NCBI RefSeq assembly: GCF_902829245.1
Contig: NZ_CADEPJ010000156.1
Location: forward strand, 1 to 35,033
DNA: 35,033 nucleotides
DNA from: Comamonas jiangduensis
GTDB taxonomy: Bacteria; Pseudomonadota; Gammaproteobacteria; Burkholderiales; Burkholderiaceae_C
Direction of reading: 5' to 3'
Shown here: one piece after another, positions 2,404 through 9,945 of the stretch
How the letters are laid out: each line of letters opens with the position of its first letter
Position numbering within the stretch: position 1 is the first letter of the stretch
Made by a program: the position numbers and the translations under genes
The notes under the pieces: model-generated
The model's input: only the letters and a program-made list of their open reading frames with translations
Told to the model about the DNA's origin: nothing
The model's database searches: none

Positions 2404-2775
2404 TTACAGCCCCTTGGCTTGGTCGATTGCTTGGACAATCGCTTTGCCCGTGGTTTGCACACCGGGTTTGTCAAAGCCTGAGCCGGGTGTCACCGCAGGG
2501 TGGCCCAGCAGGTATTGGCGTGTTTCTTGCGCCTGCGCTTGCTGGCTACGCACCGCTGACGCTTGGGCCGCTGGGGGCATGGGCGTGGGGCGCGTGTTGT
2601 TCAGGTAGTTTTGGTAGGCGTTGGCTTGCATGCGTTCGGCGCTCTCGCCACGTTGCTTTTGCATCCAGTAGCCGCCCACGATCAGCGCGGCCACCAACAC
2701 CAGTACGGTAAATATCAAACCTGTGACCAAGCTGGAGTCAGTGCTTTTCGCGGGGAGGGGTGTGCGTGCTGCCAT
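2404..2775 (-). CDS. Hypothetical membrane-anchored protein with one transmembrane helix
   Basis: I do not recognise a family. The 123-residue product has a short polar N-terminus, one strong membrane helix (LVTGLIFTVLVLVAALIVGG, about residues 17-36) and a polar C-terminal part rich in Q, A and P (about 80 residues) that would lie in the periplasm. A coiled-coil or low-complexity role is possible. The ATG at 2775 is chosen because a -10 box (TACAAT, minus strand, at 2816-2811) lies 36 bases upstream, which excludes the longer reading frame to 2952. It converges with the flavin reductase gene and shares its terminator hairpin. Confidence 0.65.
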   Translation of the reverse strand: MAARTPLPAKSTDSSLVTGLIFTVLVLVAALIVGGYWMQKQRGESAERMQANAYQNYLNNTRPTPMPPAAQASAVRSQQAQAQETRQYLLGHPAVTPGSGFDKPGVQTTGKAIVQAIDQAKGL

Positions 2776-2810
2776 GGTGTGTGCTGTCCCAAGCGGTGGT
2801 GTTAGGTTCA

Positions 2811-2816
2811 ATTGTA
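2811..2816 (-). promoter_or_regulatory. Putative -10 element (TACAAT) for the 2404-2775 gene
   Basis: On the minus strand TACAAT lies 36 bases before the chosen ATG. The same hexamer occurs at a similar distance upstream of the cytochrome gene (13509), the receiver-domain gene (9951) and zapB (32732). A matching -35 box is not obvious here. Confidence 0.45.
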
Positions 2817-3151
2817 GGTCGGGGAAACACTGAGTAACGATTTGTCGCAGCTTGGGGCAGGGGCTCTTCGCGCAACGCGCGCCAGCCGTCGTTTTTCGGT
2901 ATGTGCGTACAAACACGTAGAAGCCGCTGTGGCGGGGTGGCTGTGTTTTCAATCCTTGTTTTTCAATATTTTTTTAGATTTTTTCCAGGGATTTGCCCCC
3001 GGTTTGGGGTGGATCAAATTTTTACAATGTGCATCAGACTTTCAAATACCAAGCGCTTTGTCGTTACAAGCGCCTTCTGTAGAAAAAGAACTATGGAAGG
3101 TGAGTGGGCGGCGCAAGCGTGCAATCGCTGGACAAAACGAGGGACATTTCC
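2817..3151. other. Divergent intergenic region between a membrane protein gene and dctP
   Basis: This stretch of 335 bases carries no coding sequence I can support. The part 2945-3090 is richer in A+T than its surroundings. On the plus strand TACAAT at 3023-3028 is a possible -10 box for dctP, giving a leader of about 115 bases. No recognisable riboswitch or operator was seen. Confidence 0.4.
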
Positions 3152-4132
3152 ATGGTCATGATTCGCCGTACTTTTATCGCCGCTTGTGCCTCTGCTGCTG
3201 TGGCGCTAACTGCGGGCACCGCAGCGGCTGCACCCAAAGAGGTGAAGCTGGGTTACGCACTGGCAGTGAACTCGCACTACGGCGCTGCCGCCAAGGCATG
3301 GGCGGATTCCGCAGAAAAGCCACGGGCGGCGCATTCACCGTCAAGCACTTCCTCCAGCGCCCTGGGCGGTGAGCGCGAGCTGATCGAAGGCTTGCAACTG
3401 GGTACGGTGGAGGCGGCCATCGTCTCCACCGGCGCGCTGAGCAACTTTGTCAGCGATGTGGGTGTGGTGGATATTCCTTCCTGTTCTCAGACCAAGCACG
3501 CCCGCGCAGTGCTGGATGGCAAGTTTGGTCAAGACCTGCTGGCCAAGTTCAAGCAACGCGGCCTGATCGCACTGGCCTGGGGTGAGCAAGGTTTCCGTCA
3601 CTTGACCAACAACAAGCTGGCGGTCAAGAGCGTGGCTGACCTGAAGGGTCTGAAGATTCGTGTGACAGAAAACCCTGTGCACATCACCGCCTTCCGCACC
3701 CTGGGTGCCGCACCTACGCCCATGTCTTGGCCCGAAGTGATCAGCGCCTTGCAGCAAGGCACGATCGATGGTCAGGAAAATCCCATTTCGGTGCTGACTT
3801 CCTCCAAGCTGTGGGAAGTGCAAAAGCACCTGACACTGACTTCGCACGTGTATGCACCGGTGGTGTTGGTGGTGTCGCCCACTTTCTGGGGTGGCTTGAC
3901 TGATGCGCAAAAGGCGGCCTTTACCGAAGGTGCCAAGGCGGGTGCACAGGCTTCTCGCGCCTTTGTGGATGATGTGGAAGCCAAGGGCGTAGAGCTGGCC
4001 AAGAGCCACGGCATGCAAGTGGTCGAAAAAGTGGATGCGGCAGCCTTTCGCACTGCCTTGGAGCCTGCTTACAAGCAGTACGCCAAGAAGTTCGGTCAGC
4101 CAACGCTGGACGCTATTGCCAACGTGAAGTAA
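3152..4132 (+). CDS. TRAP transporter substrate-binding protein, DctP family (two compensating frameshifts)
   Basis: A periplasmic solute receptor of 326 residues with a signal peptide ending at GTAAAA. Family hallmarks are SALGGERELIEGLQLGTV near residue 70, the ligand-binding arginine in LKGLKIRVTENP near 175 and WPEVISALQQGTIDGQENP near 200. GAGGG at 3139-3143 supports the ATG at 3152. Between about 3320 and 3350 the frame is wrong: the +1-shifted frame reads ATGGAFTVKHF, the expected sequence before the SSALGG motif, so bases are missing at both ends of this 30-base segment. No dctQ or dctM permease gene follows, which is unusual; an AT-rich junction begins 160 bases downstream. Organic acids are typical ligands, but the actual ligand is unknown. 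Confidence 0.88.
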   Translation: MVMIRRTFIAACASAAVALTAGTAAAAPKEVKLGYALAVNSHYGAAAKAWADSAEKPRAAHSPSSTSSSALGGERELIEGLQLGTVEAAIVSTGALSNFVSDVGVVDIPSCSQTKHARAVLDGKFGQDLLAKFKQRGLIALAWGEQGFRHLTNNKLAVKSVADLKGLKIRVTENPVHITAFRTLGAAPTPMSWPEVISALQQGTIDGQENPISVLTSSKLWEVQKHLTLTSHVYAPVVLVVSPTFWGGLTDAQKAAFTEGAKAGAQASRAFVDDVEAKGVELAKSHGMQVVEKVDAAAFRTALEPAYKQYAKKFGQPTLDAIANVK

Positions 4133-4171
4133 GGAAGCGCAGCTTCCGTTGTACCGCTGCGGTATTGCAAG

Positions 4172-4206
4172 GCCTGCGAGTGCTGATAGAGCCCCGCAGG
4201 CTTTTG
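4172..4206 (+). terminator. Probable intrinsic terminator after dctP
   Basis: GCCTGCG (4172-4178) pairs with CGCAGGC (4195-4201) around a 16-base loop, followed by TTTTG. The T run is short, so efficiency is uncertain. Confidence 0.6.
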
Positions 4207-4290
4207 CTGTTTGGCAGTGACGCAGCGCGATGTTGCGCATTGGTGCCTGCAAGCTGGTGTGCAACACATAGGCTAGCAGGCGGAGTGGAC

Positions 4291-4481
4291 TCTTGTTATA
4301 TTCTAGTTTGCTTTGATTATGTGATAGTATCAATTTTTTTATTTGCTTTTTTCGGTTTTTTTTTATTTTTTGTTATCTGTTTTTGTTTTTCGTTTATCTT
4401 TTTTTTTTTTTTTTTTCCAGCAGAAAGCGGGATTCCGGGTCAACCTCGGTTTCGTGGGGTCGGGGATGTGTTTAAGGGGCC
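4291..4481. other. AT-rich, T-homopolymer stretch joining dctP 3' flank to a broken livG (suspected assembly junction)
   Basis: From about 4291 to 4416 the plus strand is almost only T with scattered other bases, ending in 18 consecutive T (4399-4416). The next 65 bases (4417-4481) are neither livG nor recognisable coding sequence. The rest of the window is GC-rich and has nothing similar. The pattern resembles a low-quality read end or a contig join more than a promoter or terminator. No inverted repeats, target duplication or transposase fragment marks an insertion. Confidence 0.6.
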
Positions 4482-5096
4482 GCCATACTGGTCGCGCAAT
4501 TGGCGAATCAGGTTTTGCAGATCGATTTTTTCCTGCGGGTTCAAGCCGGCCGCAGGCTCATCGAGCATCAGCACCTTGGGGTCGGTGATCATGCAGCGCG
4601 CAATTTCCAGCCGGCGCTGGTGGCCATAGGCCAAGTTGCCCGCCTCGCGGTTGGCAAATTCGCGCAGTCCCATGTAGTCCAGCCAGTGCAGGCTGCGCTC
4701 AATGGCTTCGGCCTCTTGGCGGCGAAAGCTGGCGGTGTTGAACAAACCAGCCAGCACGTTGACGCGTGCTTTCTGGTGCTGCGCGACCAGCAGGTTCTCC
4801 AGCACCGTCATGCGCTTGAACAGGCGCACGTTCTGGAAGGTGCGCACCACGCCTTTGCGTGCCACGGCGTGGCTGCCCAGCCCGGCAATGCTTTCACCTT
4901 GCAGCACGACGCTGCCGTTGGTGGGGGTGTAAAAACCGCTGATGCAGTTAAACACGGTGGTTTTGCCGGCCCCGTTGGGACCGATGATGGCAAGAATTTG
5001 CTTCTCGCCCAATTCAAGGTTGACGCCATCGACCGCGAGCAAACCGCCAAAGCGCATGCTCAGGTCTTTCACGTCCAACAAATGGCTGCTATGCAT
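4482..5096 (-). pseudogene. livG: LivG-type branched-chain amino acid ABC transporter ATPase, 3' end missing
   Basis: The first 205 or so residues are a clear LivG ATPase: Walker A GPNGAGKTT near residue 40, VVRTFQNVRLFKRMTVLENL, signature region LAYGHQRRLEIAR, Walker B KVLMLDEPAAGLNP. Homology stops after IRQLRDQYG, just before the switch-histidine segment normally reading close to LLIEHDM; the frame then runs through unrelated sequence to a chance stop at 4440. About 45 residues and the usual following gene livF are absent. The start ATG at 5096 has GAAGAAG about 11 bases upstream. As written the protein could not hydrolyse ATP normally. The break coincides with the abnormal stretch 4291-4481, so misassembly is more likely than natural decay. 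Confidence 0.85.
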
Positions 5097-5135
5097 GCTG
5101 GAATATCTTCTTCAATGTGATCGGTGAACGGCGGC

Positions 5136-6379
5136 TTAAGCGGCTCGCTTTTGCGGCACTGCCACATGGGAGCGGGTGACCGGGAACAGGCCCTGAGGGC
5201 GCCAGACCATCATCAAAATCATGACCAAACCGAAAATCAGCATGCGGTATTCAGAAAACTCGCGTGCCAGCTCTGGCAGTACCGTGATCAAAATAGCCGC
5301 CACGATAACGCCCAGTTGAGAGCCCATGCCCCCGAGCACCACAATCGCCAAGATCAAGGCCGACTCAATGAAGGTGAAGGACTCGGGGTTCACAATGCCT
5401 TGGCGGGCCGCAAAAAATGCGCCACCAAAGCCGGCAAACATGGCACCCAAGGTGAAGGCGGAGAGCTTGATGTGCATGGGGTTCAGCCCCAGTGAGCGGC
5501 AAGCGATCTCGTCCTCACGCAGCGCCTCCCACGCGCGGCCAATCGGCATGCGGATCAAACGGTTGGAAATCCACAGGGTGACCACGGCCAGCATCAAAGC
5601 CATCAGGTACAAGAAGATGACCATGTGTACGGAGCTGAACTCCAGGCCCATGAGCTGGTGGAAGGTGGTGCCACCTTCTACGCTGGGGTTGCGGGTCATC
5701 TCCATGCCCAGCACCGTGGGTTTAGGGATGCCGGAGATGCCATCCGGGCCGCCGGTCCAGTCATTCAGGTTAATCAGCAGCAGGCGAATGATTTCGCCAA
5801 AGCCCAGCGTCACGATGGCGAGGTAGTCGCCGCGCAAACGCAGCACGGGAAAGCCCAGCACAAAGCCAAACAATGCCGCTGCAGCACCTGCCAAGGGCAA
5901 TGCCTCCCAGAAAGACCAGCCAGCCCAGTGGAACAGTAAGGCGTAGGTATAGCGCCACGGCATAAAACCGACAAAGCCCAAGTCCAGCAGACCAGCAAAG
6001 CCCACCACGATGTTCAGGCCCAGGCCCAGCATGACGTAAATCATGGCGAGGGTGGCGATGTCGACGGCATTGCGGCCTGCAAAGAAGGGCCAAGATACGG
6101 CCATGAGCAAGGTGGCAAAAATCAACGCATTGCGCAGCTTGGGTGACAAGTCAGGCACGCGTGGCAGGCTAATGCCTTTGGTGACGCCTTTTAGGGCTGG
6201 TTTGAGCAGTTGCACGGCAAATACGATCAGCGATGCCCAAAGGACGTAGTGCCATTGGGGCTCTAGGCTCATTTGCCGCCCACACGCTGCAGTTGCAAGC
6301 CGAAGATGGGGGTGACGACCAAAGCAGTAATCACGGCCGCCATCAAAGCCGGGCCGAGGTTATGGAGAATGCGTTGCAT
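5136..6379 (-). CDS. livM: LivM branched-chain amino acid ABC transporter permease (frameshifted)
   Basis: The long part (5136-6272, 378 residues) is an unmistakable LivM permease: [42 protein letters not shown], the ATPase-contact loop [19 protein letters not shown] and RPQGLFP near the end. A 36-codon frame starting at the ATG of 6379 (sharing its A with the livH stop TGA) encodes [13 protein letters not shown]...QLQRVGGK, which matches the LivM N-terminus; it ends in a TGA overlapping the internal ATG. One more A in the AAA run at 6272-6274 would fuse them into about 415 residues, the family length. Near 5950-5969 MPWRYTY replaces the expected YAVGAYTY, explained by three missing single bases. 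Confidence 0.88.
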
Positions 6380-7305
6380 CAGACTTTCTCCACTTCTGGT
6401 TTGCCCAACAAGCCTGTGGGGCGGAACAGCAAAATCAGCACCAGCAGGCTGAAGGCCACGATGTCCTTGTATTCCGAAGAAATGTAGGCGGCGGCCAAGG
6501 TTTCGGCCACCCCCAAAATCACGCCGCCCAGCATGGCGCCGGGAATGCTGCCAATCCCGCCCAACACAGCTGCGGTAAAGGCTTTGATGCCCGCAATAAA
6601 GCCAATAAAGGGGTTGAGTTTGCCCACAGCCAGTGCAATCAGCACCCCACCGACGGCAGCCAGCATGGCGCCCAGAATGAAGGTGAAAGAGATCACGCGG
6701 TTGGTGTTAATGCCCAGCAGGCTGGCCATGTGCATATCTTGCGAACAGGCGCGTGAGGCGCGGCCCATGCGAGAGTGCTTGATGTAGATCGTGAGCAAGA
6801 TCATCAGCACAACGGCCACGGCGATGATCAAGATACGGGTGTAGGGCACAAAGACTTCAAAGCCACCCCCCATTTCAAACTGAAACGCGCCTGGCAGCAG
6901 CGAAGGCACGGCCATGTCACGCGCACCTTGGCCCAAGGCGACCCAGTTCTGCAAAAAGATAGACATACCGATTGCCGAGATCAAAGCCACCAAACGTGGG
7001 CTGTTGCGCACGGGTTTGTAGGCCACTTGTTCAACGGCAAAACCATAAATGCCGGTGATGATGACGGCCACGATCAGCATCAAACCAATCACCATCCAAA
7101 TCGGGACGGCCCCTTGAATACCGACGGCTGACAGTGTGACCAGACCGACATAGGCGCCAATCATGTAGATATCGCCGTGCGCAAAATTGATCATGCCGAT
7201 GATGCCGTAGACCATGGTATAGCCGATAGCGATCAAGGCGTAGATGGCCCCGAGGGAGAGGCCATTGAATAGCTGTTGTATCAGCTGAGGGAGAAATTCG
7301 TTCAT
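6379..7305 (-). CDS. livH: LivH branched-chain amino acid ABC transporter permease
   Basis: This intact 308-residue membrane protein is the second permease subunit of the leucine/isoleucine/valine importer. It starts with NEFLPQLIQQLFNGLSLGAI, has the conserved GYTMVYGIIGMINFAHGDIYMIGAY segment, about eight membrane helices, the cytoplasmic loop SRMGRASRACSQD that contacts the ATPase, and ends at LLFRPTGLLGKPEVEKV. Its stop overlaps the livM start (TGATG), so the two are translationally coupled. It is separated from livK by a hairpin at 7363-7398, which probably lowers expression of the permease relative to the binding protein. Confidence 0.94.
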   Translation of the reverse strand: MNEFLPQLIQQLFNGLSLGAIYALIAIGYTMVYGIIGMINFAHGDIYMIGAYVGLVTLSAVGIQGAVPIWMVIGLMLIVAVIITGIYGFAVEQVAYKPVRNSPRLVALISAIGMSIFLQNWVALGQGARDMAVPSLLPGAFQFEMGGGFEVFVPYTRILIIAVAVVLMILLTIYIKHSRMGRASRACSQDMHMASLLGINTNRVISFTFILGAMLAAVGGVLIALAVGKLNPFIGFIAGIKAFTAAVLGGIGSIPGAMLGGVILGVAETLAAAYISSEYKDIVAFSLLVLILLFRPTGLLGKPEVEKV

Positions 7306-7362
7306 GTGCGCGATGACCTAGCGAAATGAGAGAGCGCAGCACAAAGCAAGCTTTGAACTGAA

Positions 7363-7398
7363 AAGCCCACAGGCTTAAGCGTTAAGCGCTGTGGGCTT
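7363..7398 (-). terminator. Hairpin between livK and livH (partial terminator or mRNA stabiliser)
   Basis: AAGCCCACAG (7363-7372) and CTGTGGGCTT (7389-7398) form a 10-bp stem; on the minus strand the stem is followed by TT from the flanking A bases. It lies within the operon after the abundant periplasmic receptor gene, a classic place for partial termination or for a stem that protects the livK message. Confidence 0.7.
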
Positions 7399-7413
7399 GG
7401 GACATGCCGCGAC

Positions 7414-8538
7414 TTACTTCGCAGCAGGAGTCTTGCTGCCGTCTTTATGCCATTGGAAGATTTGGAAGTCGAAAGAGGTCAGGTCGCCTTGCTTGTTCCA
7501 AGACACTGGGCCAATGACGGTGTCAATCTTGGCTTTGTGCAAGTGGTCTGCCACCTTCTTGGGGTCATCGCCCACAGCTTTGATGCTTTCTGCAATCGCC
7601 TGTGTGGCAGCATAGGCGGTCAACTGAAAAGCGCCCGAGGGATTGCGCTTTTTGTCTTGAAAGGCCTTAACGATGGCGGCATTCTTGGGGTTGGTCGAAA
7701 AGTCTGCAGGCAAGGTCACCAGCATGCCTTCGACAGCATTGCCAGCAATTGCGTTGACCTCAGGGTTGCCCACGCCTTCAGGGCCCATCATGCGCACTTT
7801 CAGGCCCTGTTCAGAGGCTTGGCGCAACAGCAAACCCATTTCAGGGTGGTAGCCGCCGTAGTACACAAAGTCCACGCCTGCGCTCTTGAGCTTGGTGATG
7901 ATGGCGGAGTAGTCGCTGTCACCGGCGTTGATACCTTCAAACAATGCAACGTTGACCTTGGCTTTTTGCAGTTCGTCACGCACCGAAGAGGCAATGCCCT
8001 GGCCGTACGACTGCTTGTCGTGCAGTACGGCAACCTTGCTGGGTTTGGCTTTTTCGATGATGAACTTGGCTGCAGAGGGGCCTTGCTGGTCATCGCGACC
8101 AATCGTGCGGAAGATGTAGTGGAAGTTCTTGCCTTCTGTCAATGCAGGCGATGTGGCAGAAGGTGTGACCACGACAACACCTTCGTTGTCGTAAATGGGG
8201 GCTGCAGCAATAGCTGCGCCAGAACACACTGGGCCAATCATGTAGCCAATCTTGGCATTGACCACGCGGTTGGCAGCCACAGGCCCTTGCTTGGGCTCGC
8301 AAGCGTCGTCCACGGTGGTGACTTCGATTTTCTTGCCATTGATGCCGCCAGCAGCATTGATTTGCTCCACAGCTGTGGATACGCCTTCTTTGACCATGTC
8401 GCCATATTGGGTCAGTGGTCCTGTGGTGGGGATCACCATGGCGAACTTGATGTTCTGAGCCTGAGCTTGGCCGGCCACTGCGGCACCCAGCAGGCCCAAA
8501 GTAGCTACTACAGTTTTCAAACGGAACGAAGCACGCAT
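7414..8538 (-). CDS. livK: LivK-type branched-chain amino acid ABC transporter substrate-binding protein
   Basis: A periplasmic receptor of 374 residues, intact. A signal peptide (RLKTVVATLGLLGAAVAGQAQA, cleavage after residue 27) precedes the type I periplasmic binding fold beginning NIKFAMVIPTTGPLTQYGD. Other conserved segments are GKKIEVTTVDDACEPKQ, GPVCSGAAIAAAPIYDNEGV and DFVYYGGYHPEMGLLLRQA. The ATG at 8538 is preceded by GAGAGGA about 10 bases upstream. It is first in the minus-strand order livK-livH-livM-livG and probably carries the operon promoter in 8539-8792. Leucine, isoleucine or valine is the expected ligand, but related receptors bind other amino acids or amides. Confidence 0.92.
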   Translation of the reverse strand: MRASFRLKTVVATLGLLGAAVAGQAQAQNIKFAMVIPTTGPLTQYGDMVKEGVSTAVEQINAAGGINGKKIEVTTVDDACEPKQGPVAANRVVNAKIGYMIGPVCSGAAIAAAPIYDNEGVVVVTPSATSPALTEGKNFHYIFRTIGRDDQQGPSAAKFIIEKAKPSKVAVLHDKQSYGQGIASSVRDELQKAKVNVALFEGINAGDSDYSAIITKLKSAGVDFVYYGGYHPEMGLLLRQASEQGLKVRMMGPEGVGNPEVNAIAGNAVEGMLVTLPADFSTNPKNAAIVKAFQDKKRNPSGAFQLTAYAATQAIAESIKAVGDDPKKVADHLHKAKIDTVIGPVSWNKQGDLTSFDFQIFQWHKDGSKTPAAK

Positions 8539-8792
8539 TGTGGAATGTCCTCTCGGTTAGTTTTGCATCAAGCACTTGCTTTAGAGAAGGTTTGCAAATT
8601 GCATGCCTGATGCTCAGGGAGCAAGCTTAAAAATGAGCTCCTAGAGGGCGCAATCGGGTTTGTCTCTATAGCGTTGAGAGGTGCAGGAAATTTCTTTAAT
8701 CGCTGCGAAAAATCAAAATTAATGCGTGGATGACTTCGCAATACGACGGCTTTGATGCATACGACCAGCTATTGCGGATGGTTGAGCCTGTT
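8539..8792. other. Intergenic region between livK and rluA (both minus strand)
   Basis: This non-coding stretch of 254 bases must contain the livK promoter and the 3' end of the rluA transcript. It is less GC-rich than the flanks. I see no strong intrinsic terminator and no consensus promoter, riboswitch or operator. Confidence 0.4.
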
Positions 8793-9443
8793 TCAAAATG
8801 GTGCAGGGCTATCTATGTGCACCAGCTGATTGCGCTGGGGGTGCTGAAACTTCAGCGTGGTGGCGTGCAGGCACAGCCTTTCACTCAAATCGATCACGCA
8901 GGCGGGTGCATACAGTGCATCGCCCAGCATTGGGTGGCCAATGTGCGCCATGTGAACACGCAGCTGGTGCGAGCGGCCCGTAATAGGCTCCAGCCACAAT
9001 TTGGTGCATCCCGGTGGAACCTGCTGCTGATCAGGAGCGCGCAGATAGCGCGTTTGGCTGGGTTTGCCTTTGTGCAGAGCAACAATTTGTAGGGGTCTGT
9101 TTTCCCAGTCGCACACCAAAGGGGCGTCAACAAGTTGCCAGGTTTCGGCGGCGACATCGCCGTGCACGATGGCCGTATAGCGTTTGTGAACTTCACGGGC
9201 GGCAAAAGCATCGCCCAGCTTGCGCTGCACTTCTTTGCTGCGCGCAAACAGCAACAAACCTGAAGTGGCCATATCTAAACGGTGTACCACCAGTGCATCG
9301 GGCCAGTGCTGCACCGTGCGATGGATTAGGCAATCTTGCTTGTCAGGGCCACGTCCGGGAACGGACAACAGGCCTGCAGGTTTGTCGAGCACCAGCAAAT
9401 GTTCGTCTTCATAAAGACAAGTCGGTCGGGGAGCGGTCTGCAA
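8793..9443 (-). CDS. rluA: RluA-family pseudouridine synthase (23S rRNA / tRNA)
   Basis: The enzyme isomerises uridine to pseudouridine in RNA. At 216 residues it has the size of E. coli RluA (which modifies 23S rRNA U746 and tRNA U32) and lacks the S4 domain of RluC/RluD. The catalytic motif HRLDMATSG carries the essential aspartate near residue 57; KPAGLLSVPGR, PLVCDWENRP and PITGRSHQLRVHM are further family segments. The frame opens at TTG (9443), five bases after the stop of the receiver-domain gene; no in-frame ATG lies before the catalytic motif, so TTG with translational coupling is the best choice. Confidence 0.88.
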   Translation of the reverse strand: MQTAPRPTCLYEDEHLLVLDKPAGLLSVPGRGPDKQDCLIHRTVQHWPDALVVHRLDMATSGLLLFARSKEVQRKLGDAFAAREVHKRYTAIVHGDVAAETWQLVDAPLVCDWENRPLQIVALHKGKPSQTRYLRAPDQQQVPPGCTKLWLEPITGRSHQLRVHMAHIGHPMLGDALYAPACVIDLSERLCLHATTLKFQHPQRNQLVHIDSPAPF

Positions 9444-9448
9444 AATTC

Positions 9449-9811
9449 TTAGAACTGCTGGGGTTGAATAAGGCGATCTACGGTCTCACACAGCTCATTG
9501 ACATCGTTGGGTTTGTAGATCAAGGCAAGGGCACCCGCAGCAATCGCTTGGGCTTCAATTTCTGCTGTGACATAACCTGATGCCAAAGCCACGGGTAAAT
9601 CGGGGCGAATGGCTTTGGAGTCGCGTACCAAATCCACGCCGCAGTAGCCGGGCATGTTGTAGTCCGTCACGAGCAAGTCGTAGGCGAATGGATTTTGGCG
9701 CAGCGCTTGCGTCGCCTCGCGCGGGTCCAGAAAACCCGTTACCTGATAGCCCCTGCGGCGCAGCAGTCGCTGTACCAGTGACACCAAGGCTTGGTCATCA
9801 TCCACATACAT
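9449..9811 (-). CDS. Single-domain response regulator receiver (CheY-like), true start uncertain
   Basis: The 120 residues form one receiver domain: acidic pocket VDDD, phospho-acceptor aspartate in LLVTDYNMPGYCGVDL, the switch Ser in ALASGYV and the lysine in LIYKPND. There is no output domain, so it either signals by protein contact or is the detached end of a hybrid kinase. ATG at 9811 is the last usable start but clips the first beta strand and has no ribosome site. An ATG at 9890 lies about 50 bases after a TACAAT box but in another frame; removing one T from the 8-T run (minus strand, about 9831-9838) would join it in frame, adding about 27 residues. It is divergent from acs and coupled to rluA. 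A role in acetate regulation is conceivable from position only. Confidence 0.75.
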   Translation of the reverse strand: MYVDDDQALVSLVQRLLRRRGYQVTGFLDPREATQALRQNPFAYDLLVTDYNMPGYCGVDLVRDSKAIRPDLPVALASGYVTAEIEAQAIAAGALALIYKPNDVNELCETVDRLIQPQQF

Positions 9812-9945
9812 CACGTGCTTGTGCGCCCCCAAAAAAAAGGGGTGTGTGGGCTGGGGCTGTCGACTCGTGGATAGGGTCAGGGTGAGCCATAAATGCAATG
9901 CGAAGACGTTGAAATAAAGCTGCGCAGAAACGAAGCAGGGCGCGC

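Follow-up and report, generated by a model that had tools for sequence, protein, structure and literature searches.

Gene content and composition of the junction

The window, that is the whole stretch of DNA that was analysed (35,033 nucleotides), is the complete contig C156 of an assembly that comprises 2,758,586 bases in 322 contigs and is 75.45% complete and 3.58% contaminated. Two transporter genes lie on either side of a T-rich junction. The gene dctP, encoding the solute-binding subunit of a TRAP transporter, occupies positions 3104–4132 on the plus strand (NCBIfam TIGR00787, 204.6 bits against a cut-off of 175.05). On the minus strand, positions 4483–5096 hold the genuine part of livG, about its first 205 codons, as judged from protein and DNA similarity to G010, the closest same-genus genome by both livG (92%) and dctP (88%).

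At the DNA level, similarity of livG to G010 and to C. aquatica ends at position 4481. It is followed by 66 foreign bases (4482–4417, minus strand) and a T-rich stretch of 126 bases at about 4291–4416. The latter includes a run of exactly 18 T at 4399–4416, which is the sole run of at least 12 T in the window. The five 100-base tiles with the lowest GC content in the window all belong to this stretch, having 18–22% GC as compared to the window mean of 56%. Thus, the initial annotation, which described a livG intact until about 4482, then 65 unrelated bases and about 125 T-dominated bases with an 18-T run, is confirmed almost to the base. Positions 4215–4290 have a normal GC content; similarity to G010 after dctP is clear only to 4214, and this stretch is probably the genuine spacer between dctP and dctQ.

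The dctP and livG half-operons

On the dctP side, positions 1–138, 165–2216 and 2404–4214 of the window are collinear with the stretch of G010 contig C16 that holds dctP. The two dctP proteins share 88% amino acid identity. In G010 the gene is followed by a dctQ-like gene and by dctM. The dctM product passes its model (416 bits, cut-off 268), while the dctQ-like gene is under the cut-off (53.9 against 260 bits); this model is its best hit and the name rests also on position. The DNA of G010 dctQM matched our assembly only at the window stub 4133–4214 (40 of 70 first-look candidates were scored). With the Pfam model DctM four matches in three contigs of the assembly were found, at most 30% identical to G010 dctM.

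On the livG side, positions 4481–9625 are collinear with G010 contig C11. The livG reading frame starts at 5096 and is 92% identical in amino acids to residues 1–206 of the G010 protein and 91% identical to residues 1–205 of C. aquatica livG; among the best 80 loci the nearest named relatives are Comamonas, with C. aquatica first. The reading frame here has 218 amino acids as compared to 256 in C. aquatica and G010, meaning that the end of livG is missing, and with it presumably the switch histidine. The best NCBIfam model is LivG PRK11300 with 353.4 bits, under the cut-off of 362, while the full gene of G010 scores 452.7 bits. In relatives the gene continues past the break, and in G010 contig C11 it is followed by a livF-like gene (370.5 bits, under the cut-off of 441; again the best hit, and the name rests also on position).

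It had been proposed that livF is absent here and that dctP has no permease genes. Both points hold for the contig: its only LivF match is livG itself and it has no match to DctM. The idea that the rest of livG, livF and dctQM could be recovered at contig ends was not borne out, as a search across the assembly found only distant paralogues. Specifically, the C. aquatica LivF protein gave 12 matches at E 1e-20, none of them close; the best by E-value is in C23 (44%), and a match at the start of C61 is 63% identical over residues 124–239. G010 DNA from the livF region reached no more than 72% (scored for 40 of the 111 first-look candidates). These are matches at the level of paralogues, because livG itself is 92% identical to its G010 counterpart. 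The missing end of livG (G010 residues 201–256) was compared with 53 loci of the assembly and the best identity was 60%, in C26.

The insert is a Nextera adapter

Read on the minus strand from the edge of livG, the 66 foreign bases follow the layout of a Nextera adapter. Positions 4482–4449 carry a damaged 19-nucleotide transposase mosaic end (4482–4464, ungapped identity 14/19) located at the genomic edge, directly followed by 15 nucleotides of the Read 2 adapter (13/15). Next comes an 8-nucleotide i7 index at 4448–4441, which reads CGAGGTTG, and a damaged Illumina P7 sequence at 4440–4417 (ungapped identity 16/24). The adapter begins at 4482, coinciding with the end of livG similarity at 4481. 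The template consisting of transposase end, Read 2, eight free positions and P7 matches 43 of its 58 informative bases at 4482–4417 in an ungapped comparison. The runner-up site in the window, on either strand, reaches 32/58, and 300 shuffled templates searched against the whole window on both strands gave best scores that averaged 29.7 and never exceeded 34, which puts the junction match far beyond chance. For three other Illumina adapter constructs the top listed sites scored 28–32 of 58–62, none of them at the junction, and these were rejected.

The index matches N710 at 7 of 8 positions, the next best of 26 i7 indices reaching 4/8. With N710 inserted, the template matches 50/66 bases at the junction, and in a gapped alignment the junction tiles score 34 while the next of 348 tiles scores 16. 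A table in PMC7589761 prints N710 as CGAGGCTG and also lists the P7 primer, and the Nextera Read 2 string is given among the trimming parameters in PMC6460022. It is important to note that 15 of the 58 bases differ in the window copy, which is more damaged than the copies in contigs C135 and C88 described below, and for this reason its identity rests on the whole pattern.

Directly after P7 follows an uninterrupted run of 18 A (4416–4399, minus strand). An Illumina read that proceeds past the end of its template yields A's, and the run probably represents base calls made beyond the end of the sequenced fragment. Behind it, positions 4398–4291 form an A-rich tail resembling low-quality read sequence, its left edge being approximate; on this strand A makes up 37 of the 50 bases at 4351–4400 and 36 of the 60 at 4291–4350. 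The longest exact match of the tail elsewhere in the window is 11 nucleotides. When positions 4200–4760 were searched against the assembly, only the region itself and a 40-nucleotide place matching its livG part were found. Judging from its A richness and lack of matches, the tail is probably non-genomic. The DNA at the junction is synthetic adapter plus A-rich sequence that matches neither other parts of the assembly nor plasmid records. The join on the dctP side is without an adapter of its own.

The adapter recurs in the assembly

A query composed of adapter, N710, P7 and ten A's gave nine matches in the assembly at E up to 10, five of which are clear further copies (E 1.5e-31 to 5.6e-11). 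Three are located less than about 150 nucleotides from a contig end: C135:60–134 (99%, N710 index 8/8), C110:84–151 (87%, 6/8) and C201:52–122 (79%, 7/8). The remaining two are internal, namely C88:13215–13283 (94%, 8/8) and C63:7500–7575 (84%, 6/8). These index identities were scored at fixed spacing, and since the query carried N710, the best-aligned copies are favoured in the comparison. An A run and then a mixed tail are found behind the adapter in all five copies, the A run being broken in C110. Of the other matches, one (C88:13289–13309) is a P7 fragment immediately following the C88 copy, and three with E values of 0.18–2.2 are apparently due to chance. The search did not return the window copy, whose damage is probably too great for the initial screening step; that copy was scored directly instead.

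The flanks of the two internal copies differ in their arrangement in G010. At C63 the two flanks are on different G010 contigs. At C88 a single G010 contig holds both flanks, equally oriented and separated by about 9.7 kb, which shows that linked sequences, too, can be bridged by an adapter join.

The flanks are separate in related genomes

Among the 20 relatives searched, eight same-genus genomes have both livG and dctP matches at E 1e-60, and the two genes are adjacent in none of these eight. G003, G006, G007 and G010 have them on separate contigs; in G001, G002, G004 and G008 they share a contig but are about 1.66, 1.43, 0.98 and 0.19 Mb apart, respectively. These positions are those of the best dctP match, which in G007 and G008 is only 47–48% identical. 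G004 has in addition a second, weaker dctP-like match (72%, with one internal stop) about 48 kb from livG. The earlier suggestion that two unrelated chromosomal ends were joined is therefore supported by the separate locations of the flanks in relatives.

Other irregularities were noticed in the window. Gene order relative to G010 also breaks at 9822–9945, where the left side matches G010 contig C11 and the right side (acs) contig C16; the flanks of this break are about 0.8–1.1 Mb apart in G001, G002 and G004 too. At the break itself only residues 608–730 of a 731-amino-acid G010 protein, response-regulator-like by eye, are matched. The adapter search gave tile scores of 8–11 near 9826, which is background level. 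This second break may be either a real rearrangement or another false join.

There are also small local frame-shifting indels relative to G010 at 3320–3352, 3477–3499, 5952–5967, 6275 and 2059–2090, located in dctP, livM and the gene at 1656–2216. Four of these five groups cancel within about 15–32 bases; the one at 6275 does not. The indels hint at poor consensus quality.

Discussion

The T-rich junction between dctP and livG is not a real feature and not biology. We consider it practically certain that it is an untrimmed Nextera read-through adapter that produced a false join between distant parts of the chromosome, i.e. an artefact of assembly. What the sequence itself demonstrates is the adapter with its parts in order, its coincidence with the end of livG similarity, its recurrence in the assembly with the same index, and the separation of the flanks in relatives. 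In the course of events that we infer, including the direction and length of the read, its untrimmed state and the attachment of its tail to the dctP side, a short Nextera library fragment would have ended inside livG at about 4483. An Illumina read would have passed the end of this fragment and continued through the transposase adapter of Read 2, the N710 index and finally P7. Having run off the template, the base caller would have put out A's and then A-rich noise. The assembler may then have lengthened the livG contig with this untrimmed read, whose noisy tail would have become fused to a contig end just after dctP. The roughly 190 non-genomic bases would imply a long read.

There are other ways to read the same junction. 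One is that this organism really has dctP close to the liv cluster, in a real rearrangement relative to the genus, and that the adapter-bearing read only fills the gap between them wrongly. The copy in C88, whose flanks are linked in G010 at a distance of about 9.7 kb, sets a precedent for this, and the weaker dctP-like match of G004 lies near livG. The separate contigs of livG and dctP in G010, their lack of adjacency in all eight same-genus genomes with both matches, and C63, where the flanks of the adapter are on different G010 contigs too, speak against it, and we find such proximity very improbable. According to a second reading, dctP came to lie next to livG through a genuine rearrangement of the chromosome, with a T-rich insertion at the junction. 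The order break at 9822–9945, where no adapter was detected, means that rearrangements between these species are possible. At the junction, however, the 66 inserted bases are adapter, index and P7, correctly ordered and spaced, and five further adapter copies in the assembly have an identical or almost identical index, so that this reading was rejected as scarcely credible. Insertion of a T-rich-tailed mobile element or phage end into livG, to which the low GC content and the sharp edge would fit, was likewise rejected and has a negligible probability, as the insert matches the adapter, the list of open reading frames shows no transposase or integrase by eye near the join, inverted repeats were not found in 4100–4600 and positions 4215–4420 have no match in 72,556 plasmid records.

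With the adapter join as the preferred reading, the absence of the livG end, livF and dctQM is best attributed to sequencing and assembly. The searches described above found no close copies of them in the assembly, which is 75.45% complete; they are missing from an incomplete assembly, and nothing follows from this as to the organism itself. The contig is unsafe for inferring gene loss or operon fusion, and C88 and C63 of the same assembly likewise carry an internal adapter. A simple test for false joins in draft genomes is to look on one strand for an adapter followed by an index, P7 and an A run.

Comparison with adapter remnants in public records

Adapter remnants of this sort are a known contaminant of deposited sequence. 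A search with the 66-mer carrying N710 hit 41 of 50,697 phage records, and in 29 of these the match covers 80% or more of the query. Among 20,395 E. coli records at complete-genome level there was no hit. This absence is expected, because the oligonucleotide is synthetic and the assemblies are finished. With a free index it is found exactly in at least 120 IMG/VR stretches.

Some of these records deserve mention by themselves. The exact Nextera Read 2, N710 and P7 oligonucleotide is present in MK327946 / NC_054919 at 76694–76759, under a gene annotated as baseplate hub/tail lysozyme, and in MH973725 at 6641–6706, under a hypothetical protein gene. IMGVR_UViG_3300028837_000933 (121,820 bases) carries the adapter 6,345 nucleotides from its nearer end, the only such locus of 80, and is possibly a false join in a viral contig.

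The window copy agrees with Nextera read-through (Read 2, i7, P7 and an A run) in the order and spacing of the parts, in the 8-nucleotide index and in the A run, and other contigs of the assembly carry this index or one very close to it. It differs from the copies in C135 and C88 in being more damaged, and it lies inside its contig and not at the end. Phage and IMG/VR records have the same oligonucleotide left in deposited sequence, some copies being internal. In 79 of the 80 IMG/VR loci that were checked the adapter is at most 150 nucleotides from the end of the locus, whereas the window copy is internal and joins distant loci.
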